The position numbers were made by a program, and so were the translations under genes. Under the pieces are notes generated by a model. That model was not told the origin of the DNA, did no database searches, and saw nothing but the letters and a program-made list of their open reading frames with translations. DNA of 64,000 bases from Crocinitomicaceae bacterium. Lineage in GTDB: Bacteria > Bacteroidota > Bacteroidia > Flavobacteriales_G > Salibacteraceae. Shown piece after piece: positions 28,202 through 52,440 of this stretch (its first letter is position 1; each line of letters opens with the position of its first letter). The stretch lies in the NCBI GenBank assembly GCA_002713215.1, contig PAVO01000040.1, positions 1 through 64,000 of the forward strand, given 5' to 3'.

Positions 28202-28411
28202 CCAATATCTTAAACAAATGTTGATTTTTTATTTAAATGGATTGGTAACCTTTTACCAGGTGCTATATTCACGAGGTTTTTAATTTTCGTTGAACTACAC
28301 GTATATACGACTAGGAATTTGATGTGTTTTATTGCCACTACTATTTTTGAGGCCAAAGAAACCCTCTTTCTGATTTCTAACGGGAATTGCCTGTGGTTGA
28401 AAGATAGATTT

Positions 28412-31400
28412 ATGACAAAGAAGTTAGGTGTTGCAATCTTGATTGCGTTCCTGTCGCTCAGCATTTTAACCGTAAATGGAGCTGATAGGTATTGGGTAGG
28501 TACCACTAATAACAATTGGAACGATACTGGTAACTGGTCCACTACCTCCGGTGGGGCCAGTGGTGCTTCAGTTCCCGGATCAGGCGATCGTGCCCTGTTT
28601 AATTCATCTGGTAATATCAACTGTACTTTGGATATTGCCCCAACGGTTGAATCAATTGATATTTCTGTCGGATACTCCGCCACCATCGATTTAAATGGAA
28701 ACAACCTTACCATTAACGGTGCAACTACCAATGATTTTGAAGATGGGACTTTTAATAATACCTCCGGTGGTTCTATAAGCCTAACCTGTACGGGTACTAC
28801 TTACTTTAGAGGGTCAACTTTTAATCCTGCAGTTACGGCTAGTTCGGGAAGACTTTATCTCAATGGTTCCAGATTCAATGGTACGGCAACTATGACAAAA
28901 ACCGGTGCAAATAGTGATGCCGGGTTGGGTGGTAATGTATTCGTTTCCGGGTTGACTATGAACAATTCAGGATCGGGGTACTTTATGTTGGGCAATGGTA
29001 CTCAGGATACAATTACCGGGAACCTGATAATGAACAACACCGGAAGCCATAATATGTACTTGGCATACAACAGTTCCGGATCATACGTTAGTGGAGATCT
29101 TACCATTAACAATAATGGAGCAAGTGGCAGTAACTATATTTATGTAGCCGATGTTGTAGGCTCGGGAATAACAATTGCTGGAAATGTTGCTATCAATAAT
29201 ATTGGTGCCGGTACTAATACCCGTGTGTATTTTGCTGATGATGGAACTGCTAATGTAACTGGAACAACAACTATAACCAATAACGCAACAGGTGCTAATG
29301 CCTATGTATATGTTGGAACCAATACAAATTCCTCGGCAACCCTAACAGGGAATGTAACCATAACTAACAGTTCAACTGGAACTACCGTATCATCGGTTTA
29401 TCTTGGTAATAATGGAACAGTTGTTTGCTCTGGCCAACTTACTGCAACCAATTCTAGTACGGCAACAACACACCAGATTGTTGTGGGTAATGGTGCAAGT
29501 TCTTCAGTAACCATTGCCAATGCTACATCGCTAACCAATAGTGGGTCCGGAACAACTGGTCGTTCGTATTTAGGAAATTACGGCGATGTAACTTTCAATG
29601 GAACTCTGACTATCGATAATTCAGATGCCTCCACAAATTCCATAGTTTACTGTAATTATCAGTCGGGAAGTGCTAACGTCTACAATCAAAACATTACGCT
29701 AACGAATACTAACGCAGCTAGTGATGGAATTTATTTTGGAAGTAACGGTGGCTCATCAACCCTGGCCAGTGGAAGAACTATAGCTATCGGAGGTGGAGGG
29801 TTTTCTGCGGGCAATCTTTATTTTAGAAATTTCACTCAATCGGGTAATACTGCGCAATCCTGTACTATAACAGGTACAGGATACATATACAACTACGATT
29901 CGGACTGGGGAGGTAACGTAACTTTCACCGCTCCTCGATACATTACCCGAGGGACCCGATATCGAGGCACTGCTTCGATTACAAAGAATGGTGCTACAGA
30001 TGATCAATCCGCAGGAGGGAATGTATTTGATGGAAACACTACGCTAAACTGTTCCGGAGCCGATTATTTAATGATGGGTAATGGCACCCCGGACACATTT
30101 AACCTTGATTTGACTTTGTCTAATACCGGTCAAAATGGAATATACATTGGTTACAACTCAGCGGGAAACTATGTAGGAGGAAATATTACCGCTACTAATT
30201 CAGGTACAGGAACATCAACCTGGATTTATTTGTCCGATGCAACAGCATCGACTTTACATGTGGAAGGAAATGTTGATATGACGGTAAATGGTACATCAAC
30301 AACTTGTGTTGGAAGGATTGGTAATACAGGTGACGTGACCATTGATGGTAATCTGACCTTTACAAAAAGTTCATCTTCTACAACCACCGATTGTTATATA
30401 GCTAATGCAACTAATTCGACTGTAATTGTTGGAGGCGACTTAACTTATTCTCAGTCAGGTGCGGGTACGAATGGAAGAGGGTATCTTGGAAATAATGGTG
30501 ACCTAACTGTTGGAGGTACCCTAAGTATTACTAATGCCTCTTCAGCAACCAATTCGCAGGTTTATTGTAACCACACTTCTAATTCAGTTGGTACCTATAA
30601 TGGAAATATTGTATTGGTTAGTTCAAATGCCAGCTCCGATGGAGTTTACTTCGGAAATGGTGGAGGTAGTGCTACTCTTGCTGCAACCAGAACGATAACC
30701 GTTGGAGGTGGAGGGTTCATTGCCGGGAGCATTTACCTAAGAAATTTTACCCAAACCGGTGCAACTGCACAAACCTTAACTAACACCGGTACAGGCTACA
30801 TTTATAACTATGATTCGGATTGGGGCGGGGATGTTGTTTTTAGTTCGGGAAGAATAAATACGCGTGGTACCAGGTATCGGGGAACTGCCACATTAACCAA
30901 AGACGACGTAAGCGATGATCAGTGTGTTGGTGGAAATCAATTTGACGGAAATACTACATTGAATTGTAGCGGCGGAGGTTACCTAATGATGGGTAATGGT
31001 TCTTCAGATGCATTTGGGGCAAACCTTACCCTTAATAATAGTGGTACGAGGGGAATTTATTTAGCTTATAACTCAGCTGGAAATACAGTGGGTGGGGATT
31101 TAACTGCAACTAATTCGGGAACGGGTAGTAGTACCTGGATATACTTATCGGATCAAACTGCTTCTACTTTGCAAGTTACTGGAAATGTGAGTATAACGGT
31201 GTCGGGGACATCCACTACTTGCGTTGCCCGACTTGGAAATACTGGAGATGTAACCATTAACGGAAATTTGACCTGGACCAGAACATCGTCGGTAACCACT
31301 TCTGATTGCTATATAGCTAATTCAGCAGCTTCAGCTGTAAGTATTGGTGGAGACCTTACTTATACGCAAAGTGGTGCAGGAACCAATGGTCGAATGTGGG

Positions 31401-34400
31401 TTGGAAATTATGGAGATGTAACAGTTACTGGTACCATGACTTTGACTAATTCTTCTACAGCTAACAATAGTCAGATCTATTGTAATTACCGTACGGGAAG
31501 CGTTGGAGCTTATAATGGAAACATAGTTTTAAATAGTACCATTGCAGGTTCAGACGGTGTCTTTTTTGGATCTGATGGAGGATCCGGAACCTTGGCCGCA
31601 ACGAGAACGGTTACGGTTGGAGGAGGCGGATTTTCGTCAGGGGATATCTATTTTAGAAACTTCACTCAGGTTGGTGCTACTGCTCAAACTTTAACCAATA
31701 CCGGTACCGGCTATATTTATAATTATGATTCGAATTGGGGAGGTGACGTTACCTTCAGTTCAGGAAGAATGTATACCCGTGGTACGACTTACCAGGGAAC
31801 CACTACGCTATCTAAAACAGGTGCTTCTGACGATGCTTCAGCCGGAGGAAATACGTTTACCGGAAATGCTACCCTAAATAATTCGGGAAGTGGATATTTT
31901 GGAATGGGAAATGGATCATCCGATTCCTTTGGAGCTAACCTGAATATGAATAATTCGGGTACCTACCGCATGTACCTGGGGCAGGCCAGCGCAGGTAATA
32001 CGGTTACTGGTGACCTTACGGTAAACAATTCTGCCAGTGGATCAACTAATACATACGTGTACATATCAAATAATTCGTCTACCACTTTGAGCATTGGCGG
32101 GAACGCAGTTCTTAACAATACAGGAAGTTCTCCAGATTGCCGAATTTACTTTGGTTCCGAAGGTGATATAACGCTTACTGGAAATATTACAGCAACCAAT
32201 TCGGCTAGTGGTGCAGCAGGATATATTCAGGTAGCTAATTCTACTTCTTCCGCAGTTTCAATAGGTGGAACATCCTCTTTTACCAATTCGGGTAGTGGAA
32301 CCACAAAAAGAATTTACCTGGGCAACAGCGGAGATGTAACATTTACGGGGCAATTGACAATTTCAAATTCTGCAACTGCCACGAATTCACAAGTTTACTG
32401 TAATGATGCGTCAAATAGTGTGAATGCTTATAATGGAAATATTATTGTTGAATCTACAAGTGCTTCATGCGATGGAATTCGATTTGGAAATAACCAGGGG
32501 TCAGGAACACTGGCTGCTACCCGTACCATAACTGTTGGTGGAGGTGGATTTATTGGGGGTGACTTGTACTTTAGAAACTTTACACAGGTTGGGGCTACGG
32601 CGCAAACCCTTACCAATACCGGAACCGGATATATATATAACTACGATTCGGATTGGGGAGGAAATGTGACTTTTAGCTCCGGAAGAATGTATACAAGAGG
32701 TACCACCTACCAAGGTACTGCTTCATTAACCAAAACGGGAGCTTCTGATGATGCATCAGCCGGTGGTAATAGTTTTAGCGGTGATGTAACTTTAACCAAC
32801 TCGGGTTCCAGGTATTTTGGAATGGGTAGTGGCACGGCCGATACTTATGGCGCTAATGTTACAATGAACAACTCAGGAACTTACAATATGTACCTGGCTC
32901 AAGGAAGTGCAGGAAATACCATCGCCGGAACCCTTACCGTAAACAACAACGGAAGTGGTACAACCAATACAACTTACATTTCAAATTCATCCACTTCCTC
33001 ATTGACGGTAACGGGGGTGAGCACTTTTACAAATACGAGTACAGCTACTACGAGCTATATATATGTTGGTGAACAGGGGGATATAACCTTTAACAACAAT
33101 GTGACTTTAACTAATTCCGGAACAGGTACAAGTGGTTATATACGCCTGGCAAACAATACGGCAAGTACGGTTTCCATTACCGGGAATCTTACTGCAACAA
33201 ACTCCGGAAGTGGTACCAACAGAAATTTATGGGTTGGTAATTCAGGTGATGTGACGGTATCTGGCACTTTTGACGCTACCAATAGTGCTTCTTCTACCAA
33301 TGGCTATCTCTACGTTGCAAGTGGTTCGGCGTCGACCGTTTCAATAGGAGGAAATGCGACCAGTAGCAATTCCGGTGCGAGCACAACCAAAAGGACTTAT
33401 TTGGGATATTATGGGGATGTTACCTTCTCGGGAACCCTGGACATAACCAACAGTAGCTCTGCAACCAATTCTGAGGTCTATCTAAATGATAGGTCAGGAT
33501 CGGTTGGGGTATATTCCGGGGATATAACAGTTGAGTCAACCCATGCTTCTTGCGACGGTATTCGCTTTGGACAAAACGGTGGTTCAGGTACGCTGGCAGC
33601 TACAAGAACCATTACTGTGGGTGGAGGCGGATTCGTTGCCGGCTATTTGTATTTTAGAAATTTTACGCAAACCGGTGCGACGGCTCAGGCACTTACATTA
33701 ACAGGAACCGGATTCATTTATAATTACGACAGCCAATGGGGCGGTAACGTAACGTTTAGTTCTCCTCGCTACATTACAAGAGGAACTACTTATAGTGGAA
33801 CCTCGTCCATTTCGAAAACAGGAGCAACTGACGATGCTTCTGCCGGAGGAAATACGTTTACTGGGGCTTGTACCTTAATTAATTCCGGCTCGGGATATTT
33901 GTTAATGGGCAATGGAACAGCAGATACATGGTCTAATAATTTAACCATGACCAACACGGGTACAGATCACATGTATATCGCTCATAACTCTGCAGGTAAT
34001 TCAATTACCGGTAACCTTATATCAACCAATAACGGAACGGGTTCGGTGATCCATTACTTTAGCACCAATACAGCGAGTACGTTATCAATTGGTGGAGACG
34101 CTACCCTTAATAATTCAGGTTCAGGCTCAAGTATTCAGACTGTTTTCGGAAGTAGTGGTGATATTACATTAACCGGAAATCTGGTAGCTTCCAATACAGC
34201 TTCCGGAGCTGCGGGTTATATCTATGTCGCAAGCGGAACAAATTCCGCTGTTTCCATAGGCGGAACCGCAACGCTTACCAATAGTGGAGGCTCTACAACC
34301 AAGCGATTCTACCTTGGTAGTAGTGGAGATGTTACTGTAACCGGGGATTTAGATATTACCAATTCAGCGTCAGCTAGTAATAGTCAGTTTTATTTGAACT

Positions 34401-36217
34401 ATTCCGGCAATAGTGCAAATGTTTACAATGGTAACATTACCATTGAAGAAACAAATGCTTCCTCCGATGGAGTGTATTTTGGTAGTAATGGGGGATCAGC
34501 AACGCTGGCTTCAGGAAGAAACTTTAGTATAGGTGCAGGTGGTTTTGTTGCAGGCGATTTATACATAAGAAATATGACTCAATTAGGCAGCACAGCTTCA
34601 TTACTTACACTTACCGGAACGGGTCGATATTATCCTTACGATGCGACTTTCGGTGGAAATATGACTGTAACGGCTCCCCGATATTACGGACGTGGAACAA
34701 CCTATAGCGGTGATTTTAGTTTAACCTATACAGGAACTTCCAGTTCTACGTCCTACGGTTCAAACACGTTTAATGGAAGTGCGGCCTATTCATTAACGGG
34801 AAGTGGCCTGTTACGATTAGCAAATAACGTGGCTAACGATTACAACGGAAATGTAAGCCTTACCCGAACAGCAGGTACGCTGCAACCTGCTTACGGACAA
34901 TCGTGCACGTTTGCTGGAAACATTACCGTTGATGCCAACACAGAAGTAACCCTTGGAGCAGGTAATGGAACCGTTGTATTTGATGGTACAGGAGCACAAG
35001 CGTTGAATGATGGAGGGACAACCAGTAACTTTACGTTTAGAAGATTTACTTTAAATAAAGCAAGCGGAGAGTTTACCTTGAATGAACCCTTAAGAATTCA
35101 AACCACCGCAACATTTACATCCGGTGTAATGAATACCGATGCAACCAACTTACTCATTTTTGAAGATAATTCGACCGTTTCGGGTGCCAGTGATGCAAGC
35201 TTTGTCGATGGTCCTGTAGATAAAATAGGGAATAATGTATTTGAATTTCCGGTTGGTGATAGTGGGAGATATAGACCGATAAGTATTACAGCTCCAAGTT
35301 CTAATTCAGCACAATTCAGAGGCCAATACACGGCTTTGGATCCGGTGGACACCTATGGATCGAGTTATAGTGGGGGAATTGACCACATAAGCGTTGAAGA
35401 ATATTGGAATTTGGACCGAATAGCAAGTACCAATAGTGTAACAGTTACCATTGGCTGGGATGCAAATTCCGGAGGGGTAGATAATTTAAGCGAACTTGTG
35501 GTGGCTCGATGGGACGGAGGTACCTGGCAAAATGAAGGAAACGGTGGAACGACTGGGAATACAACTGCGGGTACTATTTCAACTTCAGGTGCGGTTACAA
35601 GCTTTAGTCCTTTTACCCTGGGTTCAACTACCAGCAACAACCCCTTGCCCGTTGATTTGGTTGAATTTAAAGCTACAGCCAATGAAACTGAAAAGGTAGT
35701 GGATTTGTTTTGGGTTACGTCCAGCGAAATCAACAACGATTATTTTACCGTTGAACGAACCAAAGACCTAAAAGAGTTTGAGGAAGTACTTCAGGTGACC
35801 GGACAGGGCACAACCAATGAAAGAACAGAATACCACGAGCGGGATGAGCAACCACTTGAAGGAATCAGTTATTACCGTCTAAGCCAAACCGATTTTGACG
35901 GAAAAGTAGAGCATTTTGATGTTGAACAAGTAATGTTTGACCTGGCTCAATCTGTTGGAATTCAAATTGAGCTATATCCTAACCCAAATAGTGGCCAAAC
36001 CATGTTTATGAAAATTCCGAATGCCAATTCGGAAGAATTGAAAGTACTGGTTAATGATTTTATCGGAAAGGAGTTTTTGGTGGATTTCACGGTCATAGAT
36101 CAGGGAGACCATTCTGTCGTAGCCATTGAAATGAATGAGCAATTAGCTGCTGGAAGCTACATGGTTAATATTAAAGTAGGTGACGAGGTTCATTCGCACA
36201 AATTAATTGTTCAGTAG
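28412..36217 (+). CDS. Giant repeat surface protein with T9SS type A sorting domain
   Basis: 2601 residues from ATG 28412, chosen because it gives a clean signal peptide (KKLGVAILIAFLSLSILTVNG); an ATG at 28322 would add 30 residues. The body is Ser/Thr/Gly/Asn-rich and built of about 28-residue beta-helix-like rungs (pattern VTxxGxLxxTNSxSxTxxxxYxxNxx), grouped into six units of about 305 residues. Each unit carries a GGGGF...YFRNFTQ...YNYDSDWGG...TRGTxYxG block. From about residue 2410, the PLPVDLVEF/WVTSSEINNDYFTVER module and a YPNPNSG sorting domain follow. It is probably an extended cell-surface or matrix filament. Base composition is less AT-rich than the nuclease gene. Confidence 0.88.
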   Translation: MTKKLGVAILIAFLSLSILTVNGADRYWVGTTNNNWNDTGNWSTTSGGASGASVPGSGDRALFNSSGNINCTLDIAPTVESIDISVGYSATIDLNGNNLTINGATTNDFEDGTFNNTSGGSISLTCTGTTYFRGSTFNPAVTASSGRLYLNGSRFNGTATMTKTGANSDAGLGGNVFVSGLTMNNSGSGYFMLGNGTQDTITGNLIMNNTGSHNMYLAYNSSGSYVSGDLTINNNGASGSNYIYVADVVGSGITIAGNVAINNIGAGTNTRVYFADDGTANVTGTTTITNNATGANAYVYVGTNTNSSATLTGNVTITNSSTGTTVSSVYLGNNGTVVCSGQLTATNSSTATTHQIVVGNGASSSVTIANATSLTNSGSGTTGRSYLGNYGDVTFNGTLTIDNSDASTNSIVYCNYQSGSANVYNQNITLTNTNAASDGIYFGSNGGSSTLASGRTIAIGGGGFSAGNLYFRNFTQSGNTAQSCTITGTGYIYNYDSDWGGNVTFTAPRYITRGTRYRGTASITKNGATDDQSAGGNVFDGNTTLNCSGADYLMMGNGTPDTFNLDLTLSNTGQNGIYIGYNSAGNYVGGNITATNSGTGTSTWIYLSDATASTLHVEGNVDMTVNGTSTTCVGRIGNTGDVTIDGNLTFTKSSSSTTTDCYIANATNSTVIVGGDLTYSQSGAGTNGRGYLGNNGDLTVGGTLSITNASSATNSQVYCNHTSNSVGTYNGNIVLVSSNASSDGVYFGNGGGSATLAATRTITVGGGGFIAGSIYLRNFTQTGATAQTLTNTGTGYIYNYDSDWGGDVVFSSGRINTRGTRYRGTATLTKDDVSDDQCVGGNQFDGNTTLNCSGGGYLMMGNGSSDAFGANLTLNNSGTRGIYLAYNSAGNTVGGDLTATNSGTGSSTWIYLSDQTASTLQVTGNVSITVSGTSTTCVARLGNTGDVTINGNLTWTRTSSVTTSDCYIANSAASAVSIGGDLTYTQSGAGTNGRMWVGNYGDVTVTGTMTLTNSSTANNSQIYCNYRTGSVGAYNGNIVLNSTIAGSDGVFFGSDGGSGTLAATRTVTVGGGGFSSGDIYFRNFTQVGATAQTLTNTGTGYIYNYDSNWGGDVTFSSGRMYTRGTTYQGTTTLSKTGASDDASAGGNTFTGNATLNNSGSGYFGMGNGSSDSFGANLNMNNSGTYRMYLGQASAGNTVTGDLTVNNSASGSTNTYVYISNNSSTTLSIGGNAVLNNTGSSPDCRIYFGSEGDITLTGNITATNSASGAAGYIQVANSTSSAVSIGGTSSFTNSGSGTTKRIYLGNSGDVTFTGQLTISNSATATNSQVYCNDASNSVNAYNGNIIVESTSASCDGIRFGNNQGSGTLAATRTITVGGGGFIGGDLYFRNFTQVGATAQTLTNTGTGYIYNYDSDWGGNVTFSSGRMYTRGTTYQGTASLTKTGASDDASAGGNSFSGDVTLTNSGSRYFGMGSGTADTYGANVTMNNSGTYNMYLAQGSAGNTIAGTLTVNNNGSGTTNTTYISNSSTSSLTVTGVSTFTNTSTATTSYIYVGEQGDITFNNNVTLTNSGTGTSGYIRLANNTASTVSITGNLTATNSGSGTNRNLWVGNSGDVTVSGTFDATNSASSTNGYLYVASGSASTVSIGGNATSSNSGASTTKRTYLGYYGDVTFSGTLDITNSSSATNSEVYLNDRSGSVGVYSGDITVESTHASCDGIRFGQNGGSGTLAATRTITVGGGGFVAGYLYFRNFTQTGATAQALTLTGTGFIYNYDSQWGGNVTFSSPRYITRGTTYSGTSSISKTGATDDASAGGNTFTGACTLINSGSGYLLMGNGTADTWSNNLTMTNTGTDHMYIAHNSAGNSITGNLISTNNGTGSVIHYFSTNTASTLSIGGDATLNNSGSGSSIQTVFGSSGDITLTGNLVASNTASGAAGYIYVASGTNSAVSIGGTATLTNSGGSTTKRFYLGSSGDVTVTGDLDITNSASASNSQFYLNYSGNSANVYNGNITIEETNASSDGVYFGSNGGSATLASGRNFSIGAGGFVAGDLYIRNMTQLGSTASLLTLTGTGRYYPYDATFGGNMTVTAPRYYGRGTTYSGDFSLTYTGTSSSTSYGSNTFNGSAAYSLTGSGLLRLANNVANDYNGNVSLTRTAGTLQPAYGQSCTFAGNITVDANTEVTLGAGNGTVVFDGTGAQALNDGGTTSNFTFRRFTLNKASGEFTLNEPLRIQTTATFTSGVMNTDATNLLIFEDNSTVSGASDASFVDGPVDKIGNNVFEFPVGDSGRYRPISITAPSSNSAQFRGQYTALDPVDTYGSSYSGGIDHISVEEYWNLDRIASTNSVTVTIGWDANSGGVDNLSELVVARWDGGTWQNEGNGGTTGNTTAGTISTSGAVTSFSPFTLGSTTSNNPLPVDLVEFKATANETEKVVDLFWVTSSEINNDYFTVERTKDLKEFEEVLQVTGQGTTNERTEYHERDEQPLEGISYYRLSQTDFDGKVEHFDVEQVMFDLAQSVGIQIELYPNPNSGQTMFMKIPNANSEELKVLVNDFIGKEFLVDFTVIDQGDHSVVAIEMNEQLAAGSYMVNIKVGDEVHSHKLIVQ
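29891..34900 (+). repeat. Six in-frame superrepeats of about 915 bp
   Basis: The codon pair for Asn(Pro)-Tyr in the YDSDWGG-type block occurs at 29891, 30806, 31721, 32639, 33722 and 34634. Spacings are 305, 305, 306, 361 and 304 codons. The 361-codon unit exceeds the others by 55-56 codons, equal to two 28-residue rungs. The units extend upstream of the first anchor to about 28900. Confidence 0.85.
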
Positions 36218-50514: not shown

Positions 50515-51459
50515 CTAGTCGTTAAGAATCAGTTGGTATCCAATACCACGGATATTTGAAATTTTAATACTTGGATCGGGTTCAAGTTTTTTTCGAAGCT
50601 TCGAAATAAAAACGTCCAGTGTTCTTCCGACATAAACTCCTTCATCTCCCCATACTTCACTTAGTAGGGTTTCGCGAGTAACTGTTTTATTTGCAGATGA
50701 GTGGAGTAGAGACAATACTTCGGTTTCTTTGTAGGTTAATTCGGTCTTTTCTTCTTCATAAAGTAATTCCATGTTCTTTTTGTCAAACAAAAAAGCTCCC
50801 AGGGTTATCAGATTAGAATTCCCGGGTGAATGATTCTTTCGTTTCCGATAATACAGGACTAATGCAACCAATAGAACCAATCCGACTACAATTAGAATCA
50901 GGCTTGCATTGGACTTAATTTCGGATTGATTATTTGAATTTGCAGGTATTATAGCATTGGCCTTGTTTTGCTTGTCTTCATTTAATAAGGTAAACAGAAT
51001 TTGATAACAACCCAATGGTAAAACCCTTCCCTTGCAGGGAATAAAATCCTTCGATTCAGTATTTCGAATTGCATAACTATAAACTACTTCTTTTGAGGCA
51101 CAGGATTGTACTTCCACCACATAACTGTTCGAAACTCGGGTTTGCGCCATCACCTGTTGAACACAGGTGACCAGTTTGTCCGGATCAAATTCGAATTCGG
51201 TATCAAACTGAATGAGGTAGTGTCCGTTTTCCGTTTTAAAGTTATATCCATGGTTGGGAGAATACTCCGAGATCAATTGATCTTCTATTTTTTTAATAGG
51301 CAATACCCTCGAAGTACTGTCATTGTTGTTTAGAAGAAATTCATGGCCAATCATTCGCATTGCCACTTTGATTTCTTTTTCCTTTAAGGGGCTATTAGAA
51401 TACCCGACGATTGACCAAACAAATAGAAAAAGCAGTATAAAATGATAGCGATTTACCAC
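50515..51459 (-). CDS. Membrane-anchored OmpR-type winged-helix regulator (ToxR-like topology)
   Basis: 314 residues from GTG 51457-51459. Layout: a signal or first membrane helix (7-20); a periplasmic domain of about 160 residues with Cys100, Cys120, Cys142 and Cys151, which could form disulphides; a membrane helix (185-203); a basic stop-transfer (YYRKRK); then a cytoplasmic OmpR/PhoB-type DNA-binding domain (217-312) with LTYKETEVLSLL, the recognition helix VGRTLDVFISKLRKKL and the wing IRGIGYQL. There is no receiver or kinase. It would sense a periplasmic signal directly and act on DNA from the membrane. A phased array of half-sites lies between it and the TonB-like gene. Confidence 0.85.
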   Translation of the reverse strand: MVNRYHFILLFLFVWSIVGYSNSPLKEKEIKVAMRMIGHEFLLNNNDSTSRVLPIKKIEDQLISEYSPNHGYNFKTENGHYLIQFDTEFEFDPDKLVTCVQQVMAQTRVSNSYVVEVQSCASKEVVYSYAIRNTESKDFIPCKGRVLPLGCYQILFTLLNEDKQNKANAIIPANSNNQSEIKSNASLILIVVGLVLLVALVLYYRKRKNHSPGNSNLITLGAFLFDKKNMELLYEEEKTELTYKETEVLSLLHSSANKTVTRETLLSEVWGDEGVYVGRTLDVFISKLRKKLEPDPSIKISNIRGIGYQLILND

Positions 51460-51468
51460 AATGTAAAT
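51451..51468. promoter_or_regulatory. Inverted half-sites at the regulator start codon
   Basis: ATTTAC (51451-51456) and GTAAAT (51463-51468) form an inverted pair across the GTG start codon of the regulator. They match the half-site of the array at 51507-51568 and could serve autoregulation. Confidence 0.4.
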
Positions 51469-51506
51469 CTATTGGATTCCTCTGCCATAACAAGTGAAAG
51501 AAGCTT

Positions 51507-51568
51507 AATTTACATTAATTTACAATCTCAAATTACAGGAAATTACATTGGAATTACCTTAATTTACA
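51507..51568 (+). promoter_or_regulatory. Array of six A-A/T-TTACa half-sites, about 10-bp period
   Basis: Octamers AATTTACA or AAATTACA, and one variant GAATTACC, end at 51514, 51524, 51537, 51547, 51558 and 51568, giving steps of 10, 13, 10, 11 and 10 bp. All lie on one face of the helix, as in PhoB/OmpR direct-repeat boxes. The array sits about 45-105 bases upstream of the expected start of the TonB-like gene. Confidence 0.7.
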
Positions 51569-51599
51569 TTGCATAAGTCTTCTTCTGAATTGCCACAGG

Positions 51600-51607
51600 T
51601 AGATTTG
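51600..51607 (+). promoter_or_regulatory. -7 promoter element (TAGATTTG) of the TonB-like gene
   Basis: An exact TAnnTTTG match 17 bases before the ATG at 51625. No good -33 TTG is present, as expected for an activator-dependent promoter behind the half-site array. Confidence 0.5.
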
Positions 51608-51624
51608 GTGTAAAGATTTTAATT

Positions 51625-52440
51625 ATGAAGAAAAGTACATTATTCATTGGATTTACAATTTCTTTCCTGGGACTTTGGGCATTAGTAAGTATTAATCCTA
51701 TTGATATAGGGGCATCAACTAATCTGACCTGTAAACCGGGTTCGGTCTCTGGGGCTTATCATTCTTGGAATTGGGGCATTCCCATTGTCCAGAATAAATT
51801 GAAGAATGTAGAAGTGGAGTACTACCTTAATAGTGTATATGGAAAACAGGTGGAATTTGAAAAACTGCAGGCAGCAAATTCACTGGAAGATTTTATTGTC
51901 GATTATCCCTCTAATTGGATTAAAGAATATACATCGGTCGATTTAAGTGTCGACGAAAGCAGTGATGTTGTTTCCGGTAGTAACAGTAAATTTACTCCGG
52001 ACCAGAAGAAGCTCATTCAATCGGTTGAGGTAGGGGACCGAATATTGTTGGAGGTTAACTACAAGGTGTCTAATTCGGTAACCGGTGTAACCGAAGATCG
52101 AAAAATGGTTTCCCAATTTATTGTAGTTCCCGATAAACAGGCACATTATCCTGGAGATATGGAAGCTTTACTCAACTATTTGAGAGAAAATAGTTACGAT
52201 CAAATCGAAGACAAGGAAAGACTCGTGGCCTTGTCACCGGCAACCACCGTTTCCTTCACCATTAATGAAGAGGGAAAAGCTTCGGATGTAGAAATGGCCG
52301 TGTCGAGTGAGAATAAAATATTGGATAAATTACTGATGAAAATAATCTCTGAAATGCCCACCTGGATTCCAGCAGAAAATGCGGATGGTAAAAAAATAAG
52401 CCAGAAATTCCAGTTTATACTGGGCAAGCAAGGGTGTTAA
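51625..52440 (+). CDS. TonB C-terminal-domain protein with GldM-like segment
   Basis: 271 residues. An N-terminal anchor or signal segment (FIGFTISFLGLWALVSI) is followed by a periplasmic part. Residues about 125-168 (VEVGDRILLEVNYKV ... FIVVP) resemble a GldM/TonB-associated beta domain, and 175-267 (YPGDMEALLNYLREN ... TTVSFTINEEGKASDV ... ISEMPTWIPA) fit a TonB_C domain. There is no Pro-rich linker and only one short hydrophobic segment, so it is not a classical TonB. It may transmit force or a signal at the envelope. It is divergent from the membrane-anchored regulator. Confidence 0.7.
   Translation: MKKSTLFIGFTISFLGLWALVSINPIDIGASTNLTCKPGSVSGAYHSWNWGIPIVQNKLKNVEVEYYLNSVYGKQVEFEKLQAANSLEDFIVDYPSNWIKEYTSVDLSVDESSDVVSGSNSKFTPDQKKLIQSVEVGDRILLEVNYKVSNSVTGVTEDRKMVSQFIVVPDKQAHYPGDMEALLNYLRENSYDQIEDKERLVALSPATTVSFTINEEGKASDVEMAVSSENKILDKLLMKIISEMPTWIPAENADGKKISQKFQFILGKQGC

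Follow-up and report, generated by a model that had tools for sequence, protein, structure and literature searches.

A one-component membrane regulator akin to RprX/RprY and a conserved direct-repeat array between divergent genes in Bacteroidia

Membrane-bound transcription regulators (TTRs) are common in Bacteroidia (PMC10269533). They share with the hybrid two-component systems of Bacteroides, and with the protein described here, the property of being transcription factors held in the membrane; the hybrids keep both a kinase and a receiver, whereas this protein has neither. In Neisseria gonorrhoeae, Rsp is described as the PilS receptor fused to the DNA-binding domain of PilR (PMC10269533), i.e., a two-component system collapsed to one membrane DNA-binding protein with an N-terminal sensor and a C-terminal DNA-binding domain. 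As that source presents them, both membrane regulators in Bacteroidia and a fused protein of two-component origin elsewhere are already known. A further group of one-component membrane regulators (ToxR/CadC/TcpP, ToxR-ToxS, VtrA-VtrC) combines an OmpR-type winged helix with periplasmic cysteines and an exported partner encoded next door. The searches made for literature on the regulator family, operator, or target set reported below found none.

The regulator and its relatives

The stretch of 64,000 nt analysed here (the window) contains an open reading frame for a regulator of 314 aa (50515..51459, minus strand, GTG start at 51459). Its hydrophobic N-terminus is followed by a periplasmic sensor (residues ~25-180, 50920..51387, minus strand), a helix at residues 184-207, and a C-terminal winged helix of the OmpR/RprY type (residues ~216-314, 50518..50814, minus strand), within which a Pfam-type domain search places Trans_reg_C at residues 237-310 (E 3e-20, 72.5 bits against a cut-off of 26.2). 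The same search returned no match to HisKA, HATPase, or a receiver, leaving the protein with neither kinase nor receiver. In a structure model (pLDDT 76), Foldseek matches to the winged helix include the VicR, PhoB, and KdpE domains together with the DNA-binding domains of CadC and ToxR. The helix at 184-207 fits a single membrane span with the DNA-binding domain following in the cytoplasm, and the protein would thus join a DNA-binding domain to at least one transmembrane segment, the latter predicted from sequence and from the modelled helix. The initial annotation had described four periplasmic cysteines, one membrane helix, and an OmpR-type domain without receiver or kinase, which domain searches and the model bear out; it had also called the topology ToxR-like, and here the order proved to be reversed, with the sensor N-terminal and the DNA-binding domain C-terminal. 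Elsewhere in the window, positions 28319-36217 encode a highly repetitive protein of 2632 aa that is probably surface-exposed.

Searching with a profile of the sensor domain recovered 63 full-length regulators, from 61 of the 395 genomes sampled in the class; with further matches from other searches, these make up the alignment of 75 homologues used throughout. The regulators occur in more than 20 Bacteroidia families. A sequence search for relatives of the sensor among solved structures found none, nor did we find a sequence relation between the sensor and systems of the ToxR/CadC/TcpP type, from which the locus also differs in having its DNA-binding domain at the C-terminus and its partner divergent rather than co-transcribed.

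The sensor profile also matches the N-terminus of histidine kinases of ~425 aa that adjoin an OmpR-type response regulator, and profile and tree comparisons identify the regulator as kin to RprX/RprY, a relationship missed by the initial annotation. The sensor aligns with that of the RprX-type kinases over 93 columns (hhalign probability 98.5, E 2.3e-15), pairing C120 of the regulator with the cysteine of the kinase YDC motif. For the one-component DNA-binding domain the best NCBIfam match is RprY; conversely, RprY-type domains score 88-113 bits against the one-component profile, and other OmpR-type domains at most 70. In a tree of DNA-binding domains, the one-component and RprY-type sequences group apart from other OmpR-type sequences (91/87), with too few columns to decide whether the one-component proteins form one clade or which form came first (AU p 0.49 and 0.42). 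The genome of the window has a pair of its own (L163:1955-3938, on G000:C14), an RprX-type kinase with the homologous sensor and an RprY-type response regulator with the homologous DNA-binding domain; RprY is the best NCBIfam match of the latter (251 bits, short of the equivalog cut-off, 370).

In three genomes (G052, G228, and G230), a TonB-like gene of the kind that faces the regulator in the window is found upstream of an RprX-like kinase and in divergent orientation, in G228 with a small gene in between, and 11-bp TTGTTA(A) repeats separate the two; the sensors of these three kinases are too diverged for a direct profile match, so the connection is drawn from the architecture of the kinases and the arrangement of the genes. 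The RprX-type promoters (upstream of the kinase in L169, L170, and L171, intergenic in L233, L234, and L239) carry TGTTAA or TTGTTA repeats at ~11 and 21 bp, which are likely to be the RprY operator. We looked for the TGTAAA half-site of the one-component loci at RprXY promoters and did not find it.

The regulator therefore shares with RprX/RprY a homologous periplasmic sensor, the closest DNA-binding domain, and, in three genomes, the same TonB-like partner. It differs in lacking kinase and receiver, in joining the sensor straight to the DNA-binding domain, in an apparent operator of TGTAAA rather than TGTTAA, and in an additional C142/C151 motif in the sensor. The regulator has the look of a two-component system condensed into a single protein. 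Rsp, as described, derives from the PilS/PilR families and is a remnant in one species, in contrast to the more than 20 families and the apparently dedicated operator found here.

A phased array between two promoters

Across the intergenic region, a divergent open reading frame (51625..52440, plus strand) encodes an exported protein of 271 aa with a TonB_C-like C-terminal domain and a terminal cysteine (...GKQGC). The TonB_C score is 22.8 bits against a Pfam cut-off of 24.6, the NCBIfam model TIGR01352 gives 27.1, exactly its cut-off, and neither this protein nor its aligned relatives have the Pro-rich linker that follows the N-terminal anchor in TonB. A single-sequence structure model was uninformative (pLDDT 37).

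Six WTTACM half-sites lie between the two genes (51509-51568), starting at 51509, 51519, 51532, 51542, 51553, and 51563. The spacing of 10/13/10/11/10 bp given by the initial annotation is exact, and Markov-shuffling the intergenic region 20,000 times produced chains of three at most. That the array is a chance product of an A+T-rich intergenic region and a short motif can be set aside on these shuffles and on the conservation of its positions in dozens of loci. The claim that all sites face one side of the helix holds only approximately, since the 13-bp step divides the array into two phased blocks offset by ~2 bp: a regulator-proximal block of two TGTAAA half-sites, at -55 and -65 from the regulator start (51509..51524, minus strand), and a partner-proximal block of four (half-sites at 51532, 51542, 51553, and 51563; 51532..51568, minus strand), which is surplus relative to most orthologues. 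The array in the window is ~44 bp (four half-sites) longer than the usual one, with the distances to both promoters kept, and is an extended form of a putative operator conserved across Bacteroidia. Judged by sequence, array and spacing are those of the tandem direct-repeat operators of OmpR and PhoB, with repeats at ~10-11 bp.

On the regulator side, a pair of TGTAAW half-sites at 10/11 bp occurs upstream of 48 of the 75 regulators and of 1 of 303 control genes, i.e., other genes from the same stretches (p 4e-40; shuffle mean 0.12). The initial annotation had made its case depend on orthologous loci having the array, and most of them do. The strict pair is absent from the scanned region of the remaining 27 homologues, some of which have miscalled starts. 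One clade (L128, L131, L140, and L154) has a variant array, TGTAAAn6TGTAAAn3TGTAAA, with spacings of 12 and 9 near the called start, and may have a different start or a different phasing.

The regulator has a TAnnTTTG-like -7 box, TAGATTTA (51464..51471, minus strand), exactly 4 nt before its GTG. Such a box stands 2-8 nt before a plausible start at 50 of 75 loci, with a gap of exactly 4 nt in 42 of these 50; among the control genes, the box occurs in 80 of 303 and the 4-nt gap in 14 of 303. As TAnnTTTG occupies -12 to -5 in flavobacteria (PMC9723704), a 4-nt gap means that transcription would begin at the start codon, and a leaderless transcript is predicted for the regulator, a class that makes up only 5.5% of mRNAs (PMC9723704). 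The half-sites, too, are locked to the regulator start, at -65 (24 loci), -55 (25), -44 (12), and -76 (5), and the array persists in two loci that have no divergent gene at all (L161 and L162). These two features make autoregulation the best conserved role of the array and support the regulator's own gene as a target, a possibility that the initial annotation had missed; the array is equally locked to this promoter. The initial annotation had pointed out an inverted pair of the half-site across the regulator start codon. The pair exists in the window but is kept in only 1 of 50 loci, that of the window itself, and its upstream half lies inside the -7 box; we rejected it as a second operator.

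On the partner side, the predicted -7 box is TAGATTTG (51600..51607, plus strand), with a predicted transcription start at ~51612, and lies 39 bp from the distal half-site of the partner-proximal block. The exact box, read on the other strand as CAAANNTA, stands beside the array at 16 loci, three of them near-identical, where either 28-29 or 39-40 bp separate it from the distal half-site, a difference of one site. The divergent neighbours are not always TonB-like. Most of them are exported proteins, with folds that are not related to one another (TonB_C-like, GldM_4th-like, YceI, two-component propeller, and further families that have no Pfam match).

Unlinked arrays and the mode of action

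TonB-like genes that are not linked to a regulator allow the array to be examined in trans. An upstream WTTACA pair precedes six of seven such copies in genomes that have the regulator and none of ten in genomes that lack it (Fisher p 6e-4, to be taken as a guide only, since some of the unlinked arrays in the set were seen before the full comparison was drawn up). The unlinked arrayed copies often have a TAnnTTTG box ~38 bp further on. In L246 (on G191:C256), a single array stands ahead of three TonB-like genes in tandem, each ending in GC; the downstream genes of this set were left out of the comparison. A strict three-site pattern gave 18 matches in 16 of 44 regulator genomes and none with a reversed-pattern control; 44 regulator-less genomes gave two matches, of which one falls within an open frame and the other in a short tandem repeat. 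Five of the 18 matches lie away from regulator promoters, three before TonB-like genes, one before a GldM-like gene (L261), and one before a gene for a secreted TPR-like protein (L276). The comparison of unlinked copies is the strongest evidence that the array acts on target genes beyond the regulator alone. Together, the presence of the array in orthologous loci, its fixed distance to the partner box, and the restriction of unlinked arrays to genomes with the regulator support the regulation of the TonB-like gene put forward in the initial annotation, which had spoken of cooperative activation; that the partner is not always TonB-like had escaped it.

In the window genome, a looser two-site pattern was no commoner than its control (8 versus 7), and the only clustered array is the one described here. 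A large regulon was considered for this genome and rejected: the other two-site matches lie inside genes, at gene ends, or as a single intergenic pair. The regulon here may comprise just two genes, those of the regulator and its partner.

We consider it probable that the locus is a self-contained bidirectional switch, in which a one-component membrane transcription factor, the regulator, binds the array and most likely activates its own gene and that of the divergent exported protein. The regulator would join an RprX-type sensor to an RprY-type winged helix and so skip phosphotransfer, passing a periplasmic change through the membrane span to the winged helices. These would cooperatively occupy head-to-tail TGTAAA direct repeats about one helical turn apart, in the manner of PhoB and OmpR. 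The array would act from between two divergent sigma-A promoters, at a fixed distance from each, to activate both; activation of the regulator's own leaderless gene would amount to positive feedback, and in some genomes the regulator would also act on unlinked genes for similar exported proteins. We infer direct DNA binding by the regulator, and activation rather than repression from the position of the sites upstream of the -7 boxes. The signal may be the periplasmic cysteine or redox state, or the status of the envelope.

That the regulator, bound at the array, represses both promoters until a periplasmic signal releases it is the strongest of the rival readings, and we regard it as unlikely. 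Members of the OmpR family can act as repressors, divergent autoregulated operators are typical of repressors too, RprY of P. gingivalis is described as a repressor on some genes (PMC6032018, PMC3646045), and the site distances would be compatible with a looping repressor. However, the nearest sites end ~20-32 bp upstream of the partner -7 box and ~26-37 bp upstream of that of the regulator, which is the usual place of an activator, and no site overlies a -7 box or a transcription start. We give still less credence to the array being the operator of another factor, such as RprY of the same genome, with the membrane protein a mere neighbour or itself a target. RprY-type DNA-binding domains are close relatives and RprX-type operons have similar repeats, but these promoters carry TTGTTA(A)/TGTTAA rather than TGTAAA, the strict TGTAAA array goes with the one-component gene from genome to genome (16 of 44 versus 2 of 44), and RprX/RprY-type pairs occur in many genomes without a TGTAAA array.

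Cysteines of the sensor and of the putative targets

The four periplasmic cysteines of the regulator are C99, C120, C142, and C151. C142 is invariant, as is R145, in all 75 aligned regulators, and C120 and C151 are both present in 67, both absent from seven, and represented by C151 alone in one. Their presence or absence together suggests a C120-C151 disulfide, with C142 apparently unpaired.

The divergent neighbours frequently end in cysteine: 32 of 57, against 10 of 269 other genes (p 3e-20), in a crude gene call in which the count is inflated by related loci and at least one neighbour (L122) is miscalled. All TonB-like homologues examined end in this way, and a terminal cysteine is also common to exported neighbours of unrelated fold (L002, L098, L114, L128, L135, L158, and others). 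In a second family, the unlinked copy with a terminal cysteine has an array (L292), and its paralogue without one has none (L295). We considered that the terminal cysteine might always pair within the partner itself, which is unlikely, as the mature sequences of L102 and L138 apparently have no other cysteine. A mixed disulfide between C142 and the terminal cysteine would fit the data as a guess. On this speculation, which we hold as a long shot, the C-terminal cysteine of the targets (TonB-like, GldM-like, YceI, propeller, and an unnamed IEPKC family) would be a convergent tag that reacts with C142 in the periplasm, and the regulator would thereby sense the export or folding state of its own targets and pass it straight to DNA.

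The one-component regulators and RprX/RprY are a matched pair in nature, with alike sensor and DNA-binding domains that operate with a phosphorelay or without one, some genomes sharing the partner gene. This makes the interconversion of one- and two-component systems directly testable, with a candidate operator at hand for the one-component form. The pattern of terminal cysteines among the putative targets could, in addition, reveal a new way of envelope sensing.
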